Source: Dehalococcoides sp.
GTDB lineage: Bacteria; Chloroflexota; Dehalococcoidia; Dehalococcoidales; RBG-16-60-22
Assembly: GCA_030665795.1 (NCBI GenBank)
Contig: DAOUZD010000038.1
Span: 1 to 6,840 of the forward strand
Direction: 5' to 3'
Length of the DNA: 6,840 nt
The translations under genes and the position numbers were made by a program. Shown here in pieces: positions 1 to 6,840 of this stretch (its first letter is position 1; every line of letters begins with the position of its first letter). The notes beneath the pieces were generated by a model. It was given only the letters and a program-made list of their open reading frames with translations, searched no databases and was not told the origin of the DNA.

Positions 1-1707
1 GCCTGCCAGCATAGCACCGGCACCCAGACGGTTCGAACCTTTGGCATCTTGCAGCTTCTCCTGGGTAACATGGGGGTGGCTGGCGGCGGACTGGACGGTA
101 TTACCGGAGCGGTGAACGGCCTTGGTTGTACTCTACAGGGACTGGTCAATCACTGGGGGCCCGGAGGGGGCAGTGTCCGAATGCCCAGTAATGGTGAACA
201 GAACATTTCTGCCTATGGCGGGAACAAGGCTCGGTTCACGAGCATTTTGAAGGCATGGTATCGTGATATAGACCATAACATCAGCTTCAACTATCTACCT
301 AAGAGGGGCGGCGACTACTCCTGGCAAGCCCTGTTCAAAGCAATAGACGATGGGAAAATAAAGGGACTTAACTGCTGGGGAATAAATCCGACAGTGAGCG
401 GGCCAAACAGCGCAGCAGTACGCCGGACCCTGGCAAAGCTGAAATGGATGGTGGTGACCGACCTCTGGGAAACAGAAACCGCAGCCTTCTGGAAGCCAGA
501 AACAGGGGTCAATCCGGCTGATGTTGGGACAGAGGTCTTTCTCCTGCCAGCAGCGTACTCGCTGGAGAAGGAGGGAAGCGTATGCAATAGCGGCCGCTGG
601 AATCAGTGGCGCTACAAGGGAGAGAACCCTCCTGGCGAAGCGAAGAGCGACCTGTGGATAATAAACAAACTGATGTTAAAACTCAAAGAAATTTATGCCG
701 GACAGACTGAAAAGAATGCTGAAGCAATTAACAATCTGACCTGGGATTATGGCAATCCGCCTGATGTGCACATCGTAGCCAGGGAGATGAACGGCTACGA
801 CTTGAGCACAGGTAAGCTATTATCAAGTCCAGGTAGTCTCAAAGATGATGGCACCACCAGCTGTGGTAACTGGCTGTGGTGTGGACTGTATACCGAGGAT
901 GGCAACATGGCAGCGCGGCGGGGTACCGACGATCCCTCAGGCATTGGGCTTTTCCCCAGCTGGGGATGGGCTTGGCCAGTTAACCGGCGCATCATGTACA
1001 ATCGTGCCTCAGTAGACCTAGACGGTAAGCCCTGGGATGCCATGCGCCCTGTTATCCGATGGGATACGGGTAGCAAGAAATGGGTGGGCGATGTTGCCGA
1101 CGGAGGCGCAGCCCCAATAAATCAAGGTGGTGGATATCCCTTCATTATGAAGCCTCAGGGGCGAGGGCATCTCTTTGGTCCAGGCAGACCTGACGGGCCT
1201 TTTCCCGAGCATTATGAACCCTGGGAGAGCCCAATATCAAATCCAATGTCAACTCAGCAGAGTAATCCAGCTATCGTGATCTGGGAAACTATTGCCAAAG
1301 GTAGGGCGGCAGAGTATCAAATCGTGGCTACAACCCACCGCGTGGTGGAGCACATGCACACCGGGACAATCACCAGACGCCTACCGTGGTTAGTAGAAAT
1401 GATGCCGGAAATGTTTGTTGAGATGAGCCAGGAACTGGCAGATGAAAAGGGTATTGCCAATGGTGATGCGGTTATCGTGGAATCGGCCCGTGGCAGTAGT
1501 GTAAGCGGAAAAGCTATGGTTACCGTCCGGATTAAGCCTTTCCAAGTCAATGGTACTATGGTTCACCAGATAAGCTTGCCTTGGAATTGGGGGTGCATGG
1601 GACTGTCTAAAGGAGACAGCGCCAATCTGCTCAGCCCCCGTATCGGAGACCCCAATACTGGTATTCCTGAGTTTAGGGCATTCTTGTGTGATATTCGCAA
1701 AGCGTAA
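1..1707 (+). CDS. fdhA: Formate dehydrogenase-N-like molybdoenzyme alpha subunit, C-terminal part (5' end outside window)
   Basis: The frame is open from base 1 and ends at TAA 1705-1707, giving 568 residues, roughly the C-terminal half of an FdnG/FdoG-type catalytic subunit of about 1000 residues. What I see matches that family: a TQH..G.Q..R segment followed by LLLGNMGVAGGG near codons 17-30, GLNCWGINP near codon 121, and a C-terminal molybdopterin-dinucleotide-binding domain from about codon 440. That domain includes HRVVEHMHTGT, a DEKGIANGD segment, SLPWNWG (525-531), and the family-like ending PEFRAFLCDIRKA. Known family members bind Mo or W with two pyranopterins and one Fe4S4 cluster and oxidise formate, usually as a membrane complex with an iron-sulfur beta and a cytochrome gamma subunit. 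The catalytic Sec/Cys position, the cluster cysteines and any Tat signal lie left of the window, so formate as substrate is inferred from overall similarity. No beta or gamma gene follows; the next gene is convergent. Confidence 0.88.
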   Translation, partial: ACQHSTGTQTVRTFGILQLLLGNMGVAGGGLDGITGAVNGLGCTLQGLVNHWGPGGGSVRMPSNGEQNISAYGGNKARFTSILKAWYRDIDHNISFNYLPKRGGDYSWQALFKAIDDGKIKGLNCWGINPTVSGPNSAAVRRTLAKLKWMVVTDLWETETAAFWKPETGVNPADVGTEVFLLPAAYSLEKEGSVCNSGRWNQWRYKGENPPGEAKSDLWIINKLMLKLKEIYAGQTEKNAEAINNLTWDYGNPPDVHIVAREMNGYDLSTGKLLSSPGSLKDDGTTSCGNWLWCGLYTEDGNMAARRGTDDPSGIGLFPSWGWAWPVNRRIMYNRASVDLDGKPWDAMRPVIRWDTGSKKWVGDVADGGAAPINQGGGYPFIMKPQGRGHLFGPGRPDGPFPEHYEPWESPISNPMSTQQSNPAIVIWETIAKGRAAEYQIVATTHRVVEHMHTGTITRRLPWLVEMMPEMFVEMSQELADEKGIANGDAVIVESARGSSVSGKAMVTVRIKPFQVNGTMVHQISLPWNWGCMGLSKGDSANLLSPRIGDPNTGIPEFRAFLCDIRKA

Positions 1708-1734
1708 CACCAACAGCCTGAAAACATGTGTGGG

Positions 1735-1788
1735 TCACGACGGGTGATATAATTCGAGGCGTAACGCCTTTCGTTATATTAATCGTGA
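1735..1788. repeat. Nested inverted repeat between convergent genes, possible bidirectional terminator
   Basis: Three pairs of complementary arms are nested here: TCACGA (1735-1740) with TCGTGA (1783-1788), ATATAA (1747-1752) with TTATAT (1774-1779), and AGGCGT (1757-1762) with ACGCCT (1764-1769). The two inner pairs share a centre at 1763; the outer pair is offset by about 1.5 bases. The core can fold as AGGCG-TAA-CGCCT followed on the + strand by TTTCGTT, a weak terminator-like shape. It lies between the stop of the formate dehydrogenase gene (1707) and the stop of the leftward gene (1810), where transcription from both sides must end. The T-run is poor, so a terminator role is inference. 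Confidence 0.5.
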
Positions 1789-1809
1789 TTGGACTAGGAC
1801 TGTGCATCC

Positions 1810-2235
1810 TTACGTTGTACGTACCGCAGACTGACTGATTTCTGGGTCATAATCACGGCAAAGCTGATAACCAAGCTCACCTATATATATTTCCGTTGTA
1901 GCCCAAGCAACTGCCTCCTCAAGATGTCCTCCTATCATCTTACCCTGTTCTTTTACATCTAGGAGTACCATATGTATATGGAAAACCATTTTGCCTTCAA
2001 ATACCGATAGTGACCCCTGGCTAGAAAGCACCCCAAAGAGCCCCTGATACTTCTCCCATGAGAACTCCCCAATTTTACCTCCCTTTTTAGCAGTACCAAA
2101 CGTTACGGTTTCTAGAGACCCTATGATACCAAGAATTATCGCGGAGGAGATGTTTTTCCTCTGACAATAACTGGTAAGTTCACTGATGAGTTTCTGACCA
2201 TGATTAAGCCTCAAGACATTGACTGATTTGAACAT
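1810..2235 (-). CDS. PPC/DUF296 domain protein, predicted DNA-binding
   Basis: A 141-residue protein consisting of little more than one PPC (plant and prokaryote conserved, DUF296, COG1661) domain. Visible hallmarks are an N-terminal VLRLNHGQKL strand and helix, an ILGIIGSLETVTFG segment (34-47), the histidine pair in FHIHMVLLD (H86, H88), and IGGHLEEA (101-108) followed by a hydrophobic strand with TTEIYIGEL. In the family these His residues and GGH cluster in a trimeric fold. Plant members join this domain to AT-hooks and bind DNA. The role of stand-alone bacterial members is not settled, so a regulatory job is inferred only. The ATG at 2233-2235 is chosen because a full Shine-Dalgarno lies 7 bases upstream. 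It is transcribed leftward, towards the formate dehydrogenase gene, and separated by 114 bases from the broken dehydrogenase to its right. Confidence 0.85.
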   Translation of the reverse strand: MFKSVNVLRLNHGQKLISELTSYCQRKNISSAIILGIIGSLETVTFGTAKKGGKIGEFSWEKYQGLFGVLSSQGSLSVFEGKMVFHIHMVLLDVKEQGKMIGGHLEEAVAWATTEIYIGELGYQLCRDYDPEISQSAVRTT

Positions 2236-2242
2236 ATTGTTG

Positions 2243-2250
2243 CCTCCTTA
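2243..2250 (-). promoter_or_regulatory. Ribosome binding site of the PPC/DUF296 gene
   Basis: On the minus strand the bases read TAAGGAGG, fully complementary to the usual 16S 3' end, with 7 bases before the ATG at 2235. It is the strongest Shine-Dalgarno in the window and fixes the start of this gene. Confidence 0.85.
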
Positions 2251-2349
2251 CCATAAATTATTAATAACCTTTACTGTTGGAAAACTACCAATCTCTTTCG
2301 ACTACACTTTTGAGACATCAAGGCACAATTTGTAATACGGTATGTCTTT

Positions 2350-2904
2350 TTACACCAACCCGTAAAGCTTGAGGCTCGTCTTTACCTCTTGAATGAAATC
2401 TTCTACCACCTTTTCAAAATCAACATACAGCGGTTCCCAGCCCCATTCCTCACGAGCCTGGCTATCATCAATGCTCTTTACGGTGTAACTCCGAAAGAAT
2501 TCCATGGCCACCGGGTCTGGCTTATAAGTAATTTTAGCCTCAGGAATGAATTTCTTTATCGCTATGTCCAGTTCCTTGGCTGATTGTGCTGGCGATACCC
2601 CTGAGATATTATAGCAAACCATCTTAATTTGCTCCTTAGGTGCGCCATACAACATTTCCGTGGCTCGGATGGCATCTTTAAAGTACGTAACTGGAATTGC
2701 GACATCTTCGGTAACAAAACACTCATAGGGTTTACCTAGAGCGGCGTTTTCAACCATCCAGGAGTTGTACTGCGTTACCGCCATGGTTTAAACACCGGGA
2801 CCCATAACTGCGAAATATCGTAAGCAACGAAAGTCTAGGTCAAACTTCCTTCGATAAAATCTGCCGAGAAGCTCACCATATAACTTACCAGCACCGGTCT
2901 TCAC
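2350..2904 (-). pseudogene. Remnant of an extended-SDR dehydrogenase resembling L-threonine 3-dehydrogenase / NAD-dependent epimerase
   Basis: From 2784 to 2350 a 144-codon frame encodes the C-terminal half of a short-chain dehydrogenase of the TDH/epimerase type: PVTYFKDAIRATEMLYGAP, a CYNISG segment, FIPEAKITYKPDP and IDDSQAREEWGWEP. The same frame upstream (2904-2791) continues the homology with GKLYGELLGRFYRRKF, then LRYFAVMGPGV, and is then cut by TAA at 2788-2790. There is no frameshift, so one nonsense change separates the parts. Upstream of the stop the similarity begins only at about GAGK. The position of the YxxxK tyrosine reads Thr (codon 2896-2898), and a TAG at 2905-2907 precedes it. 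The NAD-binding GxxGxxG half is absent from the window. The internal ATG at 2784 has no Shine-Dalgarno. I conclude it is a 5'-truncated pseudogene. Threonine as the former substrate is only a family-level guess. Confidence 0.8.
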
Positions 2905-2984
2905 CTAACTCTCCCCTGGCAGAGCCCGCTGCCAAGAGCTTTCTTTCCTTTCCGCTTTTTAAAGAACATCATGTTGCTGCCAAC

Positions 2985-3009
2985 ACATAAAAAAAGGCTT
3001 TCTTTATGT
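2985..3009. repeat. 25-base near-perfect palindrome
   Basis: ACATAAA (2985-2991) mirrors TTTATGT (3003-3009), and AAAG (2993-2996) mirrors CTTT (2998-3001) around the G at 2997. Only the pair 2992/3002 mismatches. It lies just downstream of a leftward promoter-like pair (3032-3061), so on that strand it would fall near the start of the transcript. An operator or a weak terminator are both possible. Confidence 0.55.
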
Positions 3010-3031
3010 CGGATTTGATTATCGTAATTGA

Positions 3032-3061
3032 ATATTATTTTCTTAATACTACGTTTGTCAA
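3032..3061 (-). promoter_or_regulatory. Candidate leftward sigma70-type promoter
   Basis: The minus strand reads TTGACA (3061 down to 3056), an 18-base spacer, then TAATAT (3037 down to 3032). The -35 is a consensus match and the -10 matches at four of six positions. It points towards the broken dehydrogenase and could be the promoter of a lost upstream part. There is no intact gene for it to serve, so it could also be chance in AT-rich DNA. Confidence 0.3.
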
Positions 3062-3250
3062 GTTTTTGGGGGGCAGGCCAGTGTAATGCCACCTGAACCC
3101 GGCAGCAATCAGTTATCGCCTCTTAATGCCCTTAGTCAATTTTAATCTTAAGCAATATCTCCGCCCCTGGGTGAGGAAGAAGAATACAATTGCTTCCTCT
3201 GATATAACAAAAACTTGGATTGTTACTTCATTGCATAGAATAACGAAGCG

Positions 3251-3265
3251 TTGGAGCATCTCCAA
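3251..3265. repeat. Short perfect hairpin upstream of the alcohol dehydrogenase gene
   Basis: TTGGAG (3251-3256), loop CAT, CTCCAA (3260-3265). It has a six-base stem and three-base loop and lies about 130 bases before the dehydrogenase start and 22 bases before a TATAAT. No T-run follows, so it is not a standard terminator. An operator is possible but unsupported beyond its position. Confidence 0.35.
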
Positions 3266-3287
3266 TACATTGTCAGTAAGAAAGAGT

Positions 3288-3293
3288 TATAAT
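3288..3293 (+). promoter_or_regulatory. Possible -10 element for the alcohol dehydrogenase gene
   Basis: A perfect TATAAT lies about 100 bases before the start codon at 3396. There is no -35 at 16-18 bases: the nearest TTGTCA, at 3270-3275, leaves a spacer of only 12. There is no TG extension either. It is the best candidate in this upstream region but weak. Confidence 0.25.
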
Positions 3294-3395
3294 AGCACCA
3301 TAAATGAGGCTGTGCAGACACTCAAAGCAAAATGAAGCCTGATAAAAATTGATAGATTACAGTCTCGTAAAAAACAGAAGGGGCAAATTACGATT

Positions 3396-4550
3396 ATGGA
3401 TATTTACCAAATTATGCTGCCAGATAAAATTTGTTTTGGTGTGGGTTGTCTGGATACACTTGGGGATGAGGCTAATAAGCTAGCACCTAAGCATGCTATT
3501 ATTATTACAGATCCTGGAGTTTATAAAGCTGGATTAGTAGACCCAGTGAAGAAACAGCTCTCTAAGGCTAACCTTTCAGTGGATGTTTTCTATGAAGCAG
3601 AGCCGGAGCCCACTCTGCCCCGGCTAAATGCTATCGCTGAAGAACTCCGCCAGAATAGTTGCGACCTTTTGGTAGGTGTTGGCGGTGGGTCAAGTATGGA
3701 CACAGCCAAGGGACTCTCAGTCCTTTTAACTCATGGTGGAGATGGTGCGAATTACGTAGGTATTGATAAGGTACCCGGACCTGGCATCCCTGTTTTTACA
3801 TTGCCAACAACAGCGGGAACAGGGAGTGAAGTGACTAAAATTGCCGTCTTTGGTGACCCAGAGAAAGAGCTTAAGTTAGCAATGGTGAGTCCTTATATAC
3901 TTGCGCGATTGGCTCTTGTAGACCCTACCCTAACCTTCGGATGCCCTCCAAAGGTCACTGCAGCTGCCGGAATGGATGCTCTTGTGCATGCTATTGAATG
4001 CTACACCAGCACCAAGGCTAACAATTTCACTGATGCTTTAGCTCTTGAGGCAATGCAACTCATTGCAGGTAACCTCAGGGCTGCGGTTAAAAATGGGGCA
4101 GATAAAGAGGCACGTAAGTGCATGTCTGAAGGAGCACTAATAGCTGGAATTGCCTTCGGGAACGCTAGTGCAGCCGCCGTTCACGCTCTTGCCTATCCCC
4201 TTGGTTCACGCTTTCACGTGTCCCACGGAGTCGCCAATGGCCTTTTATTGCCATATGTTATGGAATGTAACCTGCCAGCCTGCCTGACTAAATATGCTGT
4301 TATCGCCCGGATGCTGGAAGTAGAAACCAAGCAACTGTCTCTGCATAAGGCAGCCGAAAAAGGAATAGAGGCGGCCAAAAAGCTTGCTGCTGATATTGGT
4401 ATTCCGAGCCGCCTGCGAGACCTTGGAGTTCCTAAGGAAGCCCTGGAAGAAATGGCTGTAGCCACAATGGATGTTAGCCGACTCTTAGCTGCTAACCCGA
4501 AGCAATTAACCCTGGACGATGTTAGGCACATTTGGCAAAATGCCTGGTAA
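3396..4550 (+). CDS. Iron-containing alcohol dehydrogenase (group III)
   Basis: A 384-residue protein, full length for the Fe-ADH family (PF00465), which interconverts alcohols and aldehydes or ketones with NAD(P)H in the cytoplasm. The N-terminal Rossmann-like half carries GVGGGSSMDTAKG (94-106) and PTTAGTGSE (137-145), which bind the dinucleotide. The C-terminal helical half carries the metal ligands at their expected places: D194 and H198 in AAGMDALVHAIE, H263 in AVHALAYPLG, and H277 in HVSHGVANG. All four are present, so the enzyme should be active with Fe2+ or a similar metal. The substrate (ethanol, butanol, 1,2-propanediol or another) cannot be read from sequence. The ATG is preceded by GAAGGGG at 3378-3384, about 11 bases away, a rather distant ribosome site. 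The gene stands alone, with gene-poor DNA on both sides and no obvious terminator after it. Confidence 0.93.
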   Translation: MDIYQIMLPDKICFGVGCLDTLGDEANKLAPKHAIIITDPGVYKAGLVDPVKKQLSKANLSVDVFYEAEPEPTLPRLNAIAEELRQNSCDLLVGVGGGSSMDTAKGLSVLLTHGGDGANYVGIDKVPGPGIPVFTLPTTAGTGSEVTKIAVFGDPEKELKLAMVSPYILARLALVDPTLTFGCPPKVTAAAGMDALVHAIECYTSTKANNFTDALALEAMQLIAGNLRAAVKNGADKEARKCMSEGALIAGIAFGNASAAAVHALAYPLGSRFHVSHGVANGLLLPYVMECNLPACLTKYAVIARMLEVETKQLSLHKAAEKGIEAAKKLAADIGIPSRLRDLGVPKEALEEMAVATMDVSRLLAANPKQLTLDDVRHIWQNAW

Positions 4551-4899
4551 GATGGCAGCAGATACTACTCAGTAAAGTAAACCATTTAATTTTCTTGCTA
4601 AGATCCGCAAACTTCGTAGTCGGTTAGCCTATTCTACGCTAGATACTTCAGAAGTGTTCTTGAACAAACATCATGAAGGTAGAATCCAAATATTTCACTT
4701 GGAAGACGATAAAAAAGAAACGAGTAATCACTCTGGATGAATATCATCGGCATCTCCTCGAATGTTCTTATATTATTAACGAGCTAGTTGTATTCAGGAA
4801 GAAATCCGACAAGACATCAAAAAGTGCGATTATCGAATTACGTTTTCAAGGTATAAAGCGCTGGGCAAACTTGACCATATACCCTTTTATTAAACTTGC

Positions 4900-4915
4900 A
4901 AATATAGGTATATTT
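4900..4915. repeat. AT-rich perfect inverted repeat upstream of the chagasin-like gene
   Basis: AAATATA (4900-4906), centre GG, TATATTT (4909-4915). Its centre is about 55 bases before the start expected from the extended -10 at 4951-4956, a position at which an activator could bind. No binding protein can be named, and a chance match in AT-rich DNA remains possible. Confidence 0.35.
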
Positions 4916-4947
4916 ACGTGCTAAAGACCCCACATAGGAGTTTTTAG

Positions 4948-4956
4948 TGCTATACT
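4948..4956 (+). promoter_or_regulatory. Extended -10 promoter candidate for the chagasin-like lipoprotein
   Basis: TGC directly precedes TATACT (4951-4956), fitting the TGn extended -10 pattern with five of six -10 bases. No -35 is recognisable at the right distance, which extended -10 promoters can tolerate. The expected transcript start near 4963 is about 27 bases before the start codon. Confidence 0.45.
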
Positions 4957-4989
4957 TAAAACAAAAAAGGGGACAATATTTCCGACCGC

Positions 4990-5382
4990 GTGCCCGTCAT
5001 GAAATGGTTTTTGGTTTTGGTAATCGTGCCCGTACTGACGGTCTGCCTGATAGCCGGTTGTGGGGGAGAGGTTGACATCTATTATGAGCCAGAGCAGACG
5101 ATAAGCGTTAGGGCTAATCACGAGTTCATTATCGCTACCGCCACCAATCCGCCAACTGGCTATATGTGGCGGGAAACCTTCGATGAAAATATGCTAGAGT
5201 TGACAGCGAGTACCATTGAGGTTAGTGAAGCGGTTAAACGGGGCGAAGCGAAAATTGGCCTGGAGCAACATTTCCGGTTCAAGGCGCTAAAGCAGGGTAA
5301 AACAGAAATACATATTGACTTGGCTGGACCGAACCCAAAATTCAGTATAGAGAGAAAAGTTTTTCACGTTAATGTAAAGTAA
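4990..5382 (+). CDS. Chagasin-like (inhibitor I42) predicted lipoprotein
   Basis: A 130-residue protein: a hydrophobic signal segment (residues 6-23), a lipobox LIAGC with the lipidation cysteine at 24, then a single beta-rich domain of about 100 residues. NPPTGYMW at 53-60 matches the NPTTGY loop of the chagasin family (PF09394), inhibitors of papain-like cysteine peptidases. The following IGLEQHFRFKAL stretch and the GKTEIHIDL strand fit the rest of that fold. The third family loop, usually containing RPW, is not seen; GPNPKF occupies the corresponding place. Inhibition of a peptidase is therefore inferred, and the target is unknown. The mature protein should be anchored on the outer face of the cytoplasmic membrane. 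The GTG at 4990 is used; the ATG at 4999 is an alternative that still leaves a complete signal peptide. AAGGGGA at 4967-4973 is rather far from either. It appears to be transcribed alone. Confidence 0.72.
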   Translation: MPVMKWFLVLVIVPVLTVCLIAGCGGEVDIYYEPEQTISVRANHEFIIATATNPPTGYMWRETFDENMLELTASTIEVSEAVKRGEAKIGLEQHFRFKALKQGKTEIHIDLAGPNPKFSIERKVFHVNVK

Positions 5383-5415
5383 TGCTTCACTATTGTCACC
5401 ATTACCTTCTAGAAA

Positions 5416-5444
5416 TTGACTGACATACGGTCATATGTTATATT
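5416..5444 (+). promoter_or_regulatory. Strong sigma70-type promoter for coaE
   Basis: TTGACT (5416-5421), a 17-base spacer, then TATATT (5439-5444), with TGT directly before the -10 as an extended element. Each hexamer has five of six consensus bases at ideal spacing. The expected start near 5451 leaves only about 13 untranslated bases before the coaE ATG at 5464. Confidence 0.72.
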
Positions 5445-5463
5445 GTCCCGCAGCCTTTGAAAA

Positions 5464-6063
5464 ATGAAAGTTATCGGTCTTACGGGTGGTATTGGCAGTG
5501 GCAAGAGCACGGTGTCGCAGTTCCTAGCCGAACTGGGTGCCACCATTATTGACGCGGACAAGATAGGGCATGAAGTCCTCAAACCTGATACCGAAGCCTG
5601 GGGCGAAGTAGTGGCGTCTTTTGGCAAGCAGATTGTTACCGTTAACGGTACCATTGACCGCAAAAATTTAGGTGCGATAGTCTTCAGTAATCCTGAGGCT
5701 CGAGCACAGCTAAATCAGATAATGCACCCCCGAATATACGAGATGGTGAAGGCTCAGCTTGCGGAATACCAGAGACAGGGAACGAACGTGGTTGTGGTAG
5801 AAGCACCGCTATTGGTGGAAGCGGACTGGACTTTACTAGTCGATGAGGTGTGGGTTACTACTGCCGCGGAAGATACCGTGCTCAAGCGGCTTAGAGAACG
5901 AACTGGCCTATCGAAAGCGGAATCCCAGGCACGGATTCGTTCTCAGCTTCCCCCGGAGGAAAAGCTAAAGAGCGCTGATTTGGTCATTGATACCGATTGC
6001 AACCTTGATGAACTCAAAGCAAAGATAAGGGAATTATGGCGGGGACAACAGGCCAGCATTTGA
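5464..6063 (+). CDS. coaE: Dephospho-CoA kinase
   Basis: A 199-residue enzyme, normal length for CoaE, catalysing the last step of coenzyme A synthesis: ATP-dependent phosphorylation of the 3'-hydroxyl of dephospho-CoA in the cytoplasm. The P-loop GGIGSGKST is at 8-16, IDADKIGHEV (29-38) gives the conserved aspartates of the substrate and catalytic site, HPR is at 88-90, and VEAPLLVEA (112-120) is the conserved family strand and loop. The lid region has LKRLRERTGLS (140-150) and SQLPPEEK (160-167). The ATG follows the promoter by a very short leader (CAGCCTTTGAAAA) with no Shine-Dalgarno, so translation may be weak or follow a near-leaderless mode. The TGA stop at 6061-6063 lies inside the -35 element of the rplU promoter. 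CoaE and ribosomal protein genes adjoin on the same strand, a housekeeping cluster. Confidence 0.96.
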   Translation: MKVIGLTGGIGSGKSTVSQFLAELGATIIDADKIGHEVLKPDTEAWGEVVASFGKQIVTVNGTIDRKNLGAIVFSNPEARAQLNQIMHPRIYEMVKAQLAEYQRQGTNVVVVEAPLLVEADWTLLVDEVWVTTAAEDTVLKRLRERTGLSKAESQARIRSQLPPEEKLKSADLVIDTDCNLDELKAKIRELWRGQQASI

Positions 6064-6089
6064 CACTTCATCGCAGCAATTGGTATAAT
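6060..6089 (+). promoter_or_regulatory. Consensus sigma70-type promoter for rplU-rpmA
   Basis: TTGACA (6060-6065), an 18-base spacer, and TATAAT (6084-6089), preceded by TGG as an extended -10. Both hexamers are perfect consensus. The -35 overlaps the coaE stop codon, so the promoter sits at the end of coaE and gives the ribosomal genes a strong start of their own, expected near 6096. Confidence 0.85.
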
Positions 6090-6103
6090 TAACTCTTAGT
6101 TTT

Positions 6104-6108
6104 GGAGG
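6104..6108 (+). promoter_or_regulatory. Ribosome binding site that fixes the ATT start of rplU
   Basis: GGAGG is followed by six bases (TTTAAG) and then ATT at 6115. In this frame there is a TAG at 6097-6099 and no ATG, GTG or TTG between it and 6115. The spacing therefore points to ATT as the start. Confidence 0.75.
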
Positions 6109-6114
6109 TTTAAG

Positions 6115-6498
6115 ATTTACGCAATTATTGAAACTGGTGGCAAACAATATAAAGTAACCCCGGGCCAGGCGATAGAGGTGGAACGCCTGGACGCGGCCGA
6201 AGGCAATGCTGTTGAGCTGGACAAAGTATTGTTTATTGCCGATGGGGATAAGGTAACGGTAGGCACACCCACGGTTGAAGGGGCGAAAGTAATTGCTACC
6301 TCACACGGAGAGAGCAAAGGCAAGAAGATTATTGTCGTTAAGTATAAGCCCAAGGTGCGTTACCGGCGGAAGACAGGGCATCGCCAGTTTCATACTAGAT
6401 TAGTCATTGATAAGATAGTTAGACCAGGAATGGCTCAGGATGAGCCACCGAAGAAAGTACGACGGCGCAAAAAAGAGGTGCTGACAAATGGCGCATAA
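6115..6498 (+). CDS. rplU: 50S ribosomal protein L21, with apparent ATT start codon
   Basis: Read from ATT at 6115, the gene gives 127 residues beginning (M)[13 protein letters not shown], the standard L21 N-terminus. The remaining family marks are [22 protein letters not shown], the [23 protein letters not shown] stretch (the 23S rRNA-binding part, cited here in full only by its ends at about residues 77-98) and the closing LVIDKIV. L21 is normally about 103 residues; here a basic tail of about 25 residues ([11 protein letters not shown] within it) follows. The first conventional start in frame is GTG at 6178, which would remove 21 conserved residues, so I reject it. GGAGG lies six bases before the ATT. 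The stop at 6496-6498 overlaps the rpmA start by 11 bases, implying coupled translation. A single-base error changing ATG to ATT is the alternative to a true AUU start. Confidence 0.93.
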
Positions 6499-6520
6499 AA
6501 AGGGAGGCGGCTCTACTCGC
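6488..6520 (+). pseudogene. rpmA: 50S ribosomal protein L27, N-terminal fragment (first 11 codons)
   Basis: ATG at 6488 opens [11 protein letters not shown], the unmistakable L27 N-terminus that reaches the peptidyl-transferase centre. It overlaps the end of rplU by 11 bases and has GAGG at 6475-6478 as ribosome site, nine bases away. After codon 11 the L27 sequence stops. The frame runs on to TAG at 6656-6658, but those 45 codons are antisense rpmE, not protein L27. The lack of residues before MAHKK means no cleavable leader of the Firmicutes kind. The rest of L27 is on the opposite strand at 6690-6840. Confidence 0.92.
6511..6520. other. Inversion junction with 10-base microhomology
   Basis: The bases CTCTACTCGC belong to two genes at once. 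Forward, they complete the conserved L27 motif GSTR. In reverse they are GCGAGTAGAG and complete the conserved L31 motif GRVE. To the left is forward rpmA, to the right reverse-complemented rpmE. The breakpoint therefore lies inside this shared stretch, which would have been an inverted repeat between rpmA and rpmE in the parental order. Confidence 0.85.
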
Positions 6521-6684
6521 CCGGTGGTATCAAGCATCCGCCGTTCTCCGGTGAAAAAGGGGTGGCATTTACTGCATAGCTCAACCTTTAGTTCTTTCTT
6601 GGTGGAGCCGATAGTAAAGGTATTACCGCAGGCACAAATAACCTTGGCATCATTATAGTATCGGGGATGAATCTTATCCTTCAT
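6511..6684 (-). CDS. rpmE: 50S ribosomal protein L31, C-terminal tail cut off by the inversion junction
   Basis: From ATG at 6684 the minus strand encodes [10 protein letters not shown], the zinc-binding cysteines C17, C19, C37 and C40 (CACGNTF and [11 protein letters not shown]), and DTTGRVE, ending at residue 58. This is a C+ type L31, a zinc-dependent protein of the 50S subunit central protuberance. The usual last 7-12 residues, beginning R-F or R-Y and rich in basic residues, are missing. Past the junction the frame continues to 6400 for 36 more codons, but these are antisense rpmA and rplU and mean nothing as protein. No Shine-Dalgarno is seen just before the ATG. The gene lies 5 bases after the L27 stop on the same strand, the pattern of an rpmA-rpmE pair that has been turned round. 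Confidence 0.9.
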
Positions 6685-6689
6685 ATTAT

Positions 6690-6840
6690 TCAGCTAGCGT
6701 AAACGCTAACCTTCCTCCGGTATTTACTCGCTGGCTCAAACTTGACAATGCCGTCAATAAGGGCAAAAAGGGTGTAGTCTCTACCCACTCCCACATTGGT
6801 GCCGGGATGAATGCGGGTACCTCGCTGCCGGACTAAAATC
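6690..6840 (-). pseudogene. rpmA: 50S ribosomal protein L27, C-terminal part, inverted relative to its own start
   Basis: Reading leftward from the window edge: [29 protein letters not shown], then VKFEPAS and RRKVSVYAS with TGA at 6690-6692. This is the last 49 residues of L27. Compared with a typical L27, about 24 codons between STR (on the + strand at 6520) and this part should lie just right of the window. Together the two fragments would make one normal protein of about 84 residues. It directly precedes rpmE on the minus strand. Whether the missing codons and a breakpoint follow at the right cannot be seen. Confidence 0.92.
6695..6708. repeat. Palindrome at the rpmA end / rpmE leader
   Basis: TAGCGT (6695-6700) mirrors ACGCTA (6703-6708) around AA. 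It covers the last codons of L27 and lies 11-24 bases before the rpmE start. In RNA it could form a five-base stem with a four-base loop where a ribosome site would normally be. Confidence 0.4.

Follow-up and report, generated by a model that had tools for sequence, protein, structure and literature searches.

Inverted joins between neighboring sequences are described for DNA amplified from single cells by multiple displacement amplification (MDA). In the chimeras mapped in one such study, 406 of 475 were inverted, 337 of these joined parts less than 10 kb apart, and complementarity, which reached 21 bp, was present in 93.5% of the inverted chimeras within that distance (PMC1855051). Among amplification chimeras, the leading class consists of inverted joins at 2–21 nt of homology, mostly between parts separated by less than 10 kb; such joins arise when displaced 3′ ends prime on nearby displaced strands (PMC1855051). 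A second system in which a segment appears inverted is the inverton, described as using inverted repeats of 10–40 nt (PMC11892184). Here we analyze an inverted join between the ribosomal-protein genes rpmA (L27) and rpmE (L31) at the right end of a 6,840-nt stretch of Dehalococcoides sp. DNA, the whole of which we call the window.

Anatomy of the join at the right contig end

An earlier note on this DNA had described 11 codons of L27 on the + strand, followed by reverse-complemented rpmE and then by the reverse-complemented C-terminus of L27. Translations and Pfam matches confirmed this arrangement, which consists of the following features.

6115–6498, + strand: rplU (L21), intact (PF00829, 121.4 bits for 6118–6495)
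6488–6520, + strand: rpmA (L27) codons 1–11, in native orientation behind rplU, with ATG at 6488
6511–6520, no strand assigned: junction and microhomology, CTCTACTCGC, where the BLASTN alignment to the closest relative switches strand
6511–6684, − strand: rpmE (L31) codons 1–58, reverse-complemented (PF01197, 91.1 bits)
6690–6840, − strand: reverse-complemented rpmA (L27) codons 36–84 with the stop codon and, from codon 35, the last base (PF01016)

The end of rplU overlaps the start of rpmA by 11 nt, and to the right of 6520 the + strand carries no further L27 coding. On the minus strand, the L31 piece reads from 6684 to 6511 and ends ...TTGRVE, and positions 6839 to 6693 encode L27 residues 36–84 (PF01016 profile positions 35–79, 68.6 bits). 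L31 codons 59–68 and, except for one base, L27 codons 12–35 are missing from the contig. The match of this anatomy to a flipped L27/L31 pair is far beyond chance.

The window's own CoaE protein (P0241, 100% identity, in a two-member cluster) has a single recorded contig, 6840 bp long, indicating that the window is a complete contig and that its right end is the contig end; the records for this protein hold no replicate of the junction. The junction lies 320 nt from that end and, judged by the closest relative, the contig stops ~71 nt short of the second arm, the point at which an inversion and a fold-back would diverge.

Relatives carry rplU, rpmA, and rpmE in one uninverted row

The closest relative found, L001 (JAUWBK010000052.1, Dehalococcoidia MAG CSMAG_1318), is ~88% identical to the window in DNA sequence and has coaE, rplU, rpmA, and rpmE in a row on one strand, with rpmA (84 codons) and rpmE (68 codons) intact. 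By BLASTN, window positions 5461–6520 aligned with L001 positions 241–1296 on the + strand (87.6% identity), and window positions 6512–6840 aligned with L001 positions 1696–1368 on the − strand (87.8% identity). These alignments place the switch at or within 6511–6520, exactly where the earlier note had put it.

We compared 121 relative loci, several from the same genome and 61 with an L27 match only; in all 49 loci with both genes, L27 and L31 lay near each other on one strand. Of 393 class genomes searched, 214 gave matches, and the uninverted order was present on 39 of 39 scorable contigs (those with both sides of the junction) among the 150 matches listed. The inverted arrangement was found in 0 of the 49 loci and on 0 of the 39 scorable contigs among the matches listed. 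The parental order that had been proposed, rplU-rpmA-rpmE on one strand, is borne out by L001 and by these 49 loci.

Intact proteins identical to the pieces are also recorded. The L31 piece is identical at 58 of 58 residues to P0001, an intact 68-residue L31 recorded on 8 contigs, and the C-terminal L27 piece is identical at 49 of 49 residues to P0121, an intact 84-residue L27 whose first 11 residues, like those of L27 in L001, are also those encoded by codons 1–11 in the window. P0121 is recorded on 5 contigs, the longest of which, at 3902 bp, is therefore not the window. A CoaE protein 93% identical to that of the window (P0243) has two recorded contigs, of which the longer is likewise 3902 bp and presumably the same contig as that of P0121. 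These intact L27 and L31 copies are from close relatives and may stem from other cells or samples, a point against the chimera reading. Neither the junction nor the intact continuation of L27 had any match in scans of viral_contigs (0 each). When the chimeric L31 frame (94 aa) was used as a query, P0001, the normal 68-residue form, was the only protein with 100% identity among the best 120 of 1773 matches; a 94-residue protein falls inside the length limits of the search, but gene callers may skip such a frame, making this result weak evidence about recurrence.

The homology at the junction is short and partly set by codons

On the + strand, positions 6511–6520 comprise the last base of the L27 Gly8 codon and the Ser9, Thr10, and Arg11 codons; on the − strand, they comprise the last base of the L31 Gly55 codon and the Arg56, Val57, and Glu58 codons. 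This sequence is present once in the window, and all of its bases could come from the L27 side; hence, 10 nt is an upper limit for the shared homology, which may fall below it. The earlier note had inferred a 10-base inverted repeat with arms about 400 bases apart. In L001, the arms lie at 1287 and 1686, ~400 nt apart, and share 8 of 10 bases with an exact run of 6 bases at the 3′ end. Arm agreement was 9 of 10 bases in L002 and 8 of 10 in L005 and L091.

Complementarity between the L27 Ser-Thr-Arg codons and the L31 Arg-Val-Glu codons partly explains the joining repeat. With TCN codons for Ser and CGN codons for Arg, Ser-Thr-Arg (TCN-ACN-CGN) matches the reverse complement of Arg-Val-Glu (YTC-NAC-NCG) at 6 of 9 positions, whatever the third bases. 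We tabulated arm matches for 37 distinct gene pairs, 4 of which lacked RVE. In the other 33 rows, the number of matching bases was 9 in 1, 8 in 4, 7 in 2, 6 in 8, 5 in 8, 4 in 6, and 3 in 4, a rough tally, since in several rows (such as L007, L008, and L010) the RVE that was scored lay elsewhere in L31 than the true arm. Most other relatives have Ser-Ser-Arg or Thr-Ser-Arg in L27 and lack a long match, so that the operon does not conserve the repeat arrangement.

In raw counts, which include overlapping pairs and have no shuffle control, exact 8-nt inverted pairs 50–1000 nt apart numbered 148 in the 7271-nt L001 locus and 82 in window positions 1–6490, and exact 10-nt pairs at the same distances numbered 17 and 3, respectively. 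The 838-nt rplU–rpmE stretch of L001 contained 7 exact 8-mer inverted pairs 50–900 nt apart and no 10-mer pair. Exact inverted repeats of 10 nt are thus not very frequent, and this counts against reading the join as a chimera.

The length of the homology also bears on a misjoin made by the assembler alone, in which no chimeric molecule existed. Misjoins gather at contig ends, and this junction lies near one. The usual assemblers, however, need overlaps or k-mers longer than 10 nt; with at most 10 nt shared, a software misjoin becomes less likely than a physical chimeric read, and we judge it to be very unlikely.

Evidence bearing on a real inversion

A real inversion of ~400 bp between the short inverted repeats in rpmA and rpmE, either fixed or partial and possibly reversible, would also account for the order of the pieces. 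The segment is flanked by inverted homology that reaches at most 10 nt, inverton repeats are put at 10–40 nt (PMC11892184), and exact 10-nt inverted pairs are few in window positions 1–6490 and absent from the matching stretch of L001, as just noted; if all 10 bases are shared, a recombinase site would be compatible with this length. Shorter inverted repeats are nevertheless frequent, as the 8-mer counts indicate, and none of the scored relatives has the inversion. Moreover, no recombinase match was found among the nine window ORFs that were scanned with Pfam (the window has 44 ORFs of at least 40 aa, most of them overlapping other frames). An inversion would also part L27 codons 1–11 from the rest of the gene and shorten L31 by its ten C-terminal residues. 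Among the papers listed in a literature search, no title or opening of an abstract pointed to an rpmA/rpmE inversion. On balance, we regard a real inversion as improbable. The reversible form raised in the earlier note, with the repeat as the site of switching, gained no support from the nine ORFs, from the relatives, or from a repeat that is short and partly codon-driven. A switch that breaks two ribosomal proteins would, if real, be very surprising, and it is highly doubtful that such an inversion, between the complementary codon stretches, puts some cells of the population into a slow-growth state by silencing L27 and full-length L31.

A fold-back chimera as the favored reading

The apparent rpmA/rpmE flip is very probably a chimeric molecule or library artefact. 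The join is inverted and lies near a contig end, every scored relative has the uninverted order, and identical intact proteins are recorded; between the two explanations left standing in the earlier note, the place of the junction and the order in the relatives favor a chimera. From these observations, we infer that strand switching occurred in vitro, during library preparation or whole-genome amplification. In this model, a single strand, nascent or displaced, would have ended in the first rpmA codons (...GGCTCTACTCGC-3′), and this end would have annealed to the partly complementary rpmE stretch ~400 nt downstream on a nearby displaced strand. Extension back toward the strand's own origin could then have produced rpmA codons 1–11 followed by antisense rpmE and antisense rpmA, and reads from this chimeric molecule would have formed the final 320 bases of the contig. 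In the genome of the organism, the rplU-rpmA-rpmE operon is most likely intact and ordinary.

Dehalococcoidia are reported to be widespread in marine sediments (PMC4959651), and DNA from deep sediments is described as often being amplified before sequencing (PMC10694467). The DNA behind this contig may have been amplified; library-preparation artefacts are an alternative source of the join. A fold-back in vivo, in which a rare template switch at a quasi-palindromic sequence during replication gives an inverted duplication in some cells, would presumably leave the same local sequence as a fold-back in vitro, but nothing independent points to it and no scored relative shows the join, making this origin exceedingly unlikely. 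As an artefact, the join is a warning that inverted joins at contig ends can mimic recombination, and that complementary codons, in this case L27 Ser-Thr-Arg and antisense L31 Arg-Val-Glu, can supply the homology for such joins.

Other features of the contig

At the left end of the contig, which cuts the gene, positions 1–1707 on the + strand encode the C-terminal portion of a molybdopterin oxidoreductase (PF00384, PF01568). Just upstream of coaE, positions 4990–5382 (+ strand) encode a small protein with a chagasin-family peptidase inhibitor domain (PF09394, 43.8 bits) and, by eye, a lipoprotein-like N-terminus. A search of the whole window against Rfam at gathering thresholds gave no match.

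Positions 2350–2888 on the − strand hold the C-terminal part of a gene that we take, from its sequence, to be NAD-dependent epimerase/dehydratase-like; the 2350–2781 piece had no Pfam match. An intact frame of 330 residues in G001 (L126) is homologous to the fragment as far as ~2888; the fragment contains an in-frame TAA at 2788–2790, and it is likely to be a pseudogene. At the break, a sequence of 42–44 nt (2888–2931) recurs in relatives with flanks unlike those in the window, and a 66-base query gave 6 partial matches of 25–44 nt in 3 of 31 family genomes; this sequence may be a dispersed short repeat. We considered a second artefact at ~2888, but the short dispersed repeat and the in-frame stop favor a natural pseudogene and, for this reason, the break was not used as support for amplification.

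An ATT codon at the start of rplU

The start of rplU deserves more attention than the rpmA/rpmE flip. In the window, rplU has an apparent ATT start at 6115–6117, with a Shine-Dalgarno-like GGAGG upstream at 6104–6108 and an in-frame TAG at 6097–6099; no ATG, GTG, or TTG occurs between the TAG and the ATT. We compared start codons in loci L001–L115 and L127–L146, using distinct contexts in which the L21 match began at residue 1 or 2. Among the Dehalococcoidia-side contexts (from L001–L010, L012, and L081–L115, a group that includes L008, assigned only to Chloroflexi), ATT was present in 27 of 30. The exceptions were ATC (L098), ACT (L008, where an ATG stands in frame three codons upstream), and GAT (L009, with no start within the 17 nt examined). 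ATG or GTG was present at this position in 58 of 63 contexts from the remaining loci.

In further genomes of the class, we read 20 of the 47 rplU-side matches listed, mostly high-ranking ones: 15 had ATT and 1 had ATG, and the remaining four (two with ACT, one with ATA, and one with ACG) each had, by eye, an in-frame ATG a few codons upstream. The upstream ATG in most of the non-ATT exceptions suggests that ATT is the start codon used in the rest. A strict ATG/GTG/TTG pattern at the rplU start had matches in 62 of 393 class genomes and, because our samples were picked by similarity to the window, the ATT pattern holds for close relatives rather than for the whole class. In these relatives, AUU appears to be a conserved start codon of rplU. 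For infC, AUU starts are known to be controlled by IF3, and by analogy rplU may perhaps be under IF3 control as well. No match for an AUU start of rplU appeared in the literature listings searched.

Comparison with known systems

Artefact reads from library preparation are reported to be tied to inverted-repeat or palindromic, structure-specific sequences, a possible parallel to this join, although the account in question describes human capture sequencing (PMC10908179). With invertons, phase-variable inversions made by site-specific invertases (PMC11892184), the window shares a segment that is bracketed by short inverted homology and appears inverted. Of the repeats, which measure 10–40 nt in invertons, the window holds one arm, and the paired arms agree at 8 of 10 bases in L001 and 9 of 10 in L002. 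A second orientation was absent from the scored relatives (0/49 loci and 0/39 listed contigs), and Pfam gave no invertase among the nine window ORFs scanned. Both repeats here would also fall within coding sequences of ribosomal proteins, and an inversion would yield broken genes.

The inverted chimeras of MDA described by Lasken and Stockwell (2007; PMC1855051) differ from the present case in that phi29 amplification is an assumption here and the stretch that would follow the inverted segment lies outside the contig. Several features are shared with those chimeras: the second segment is inverted, the joined parts lie less than 10 kb apart (~400 nt in L001), short complementarity of 2–21 nt marks the join (at most 10 nt here), and the occurrence is isolated.
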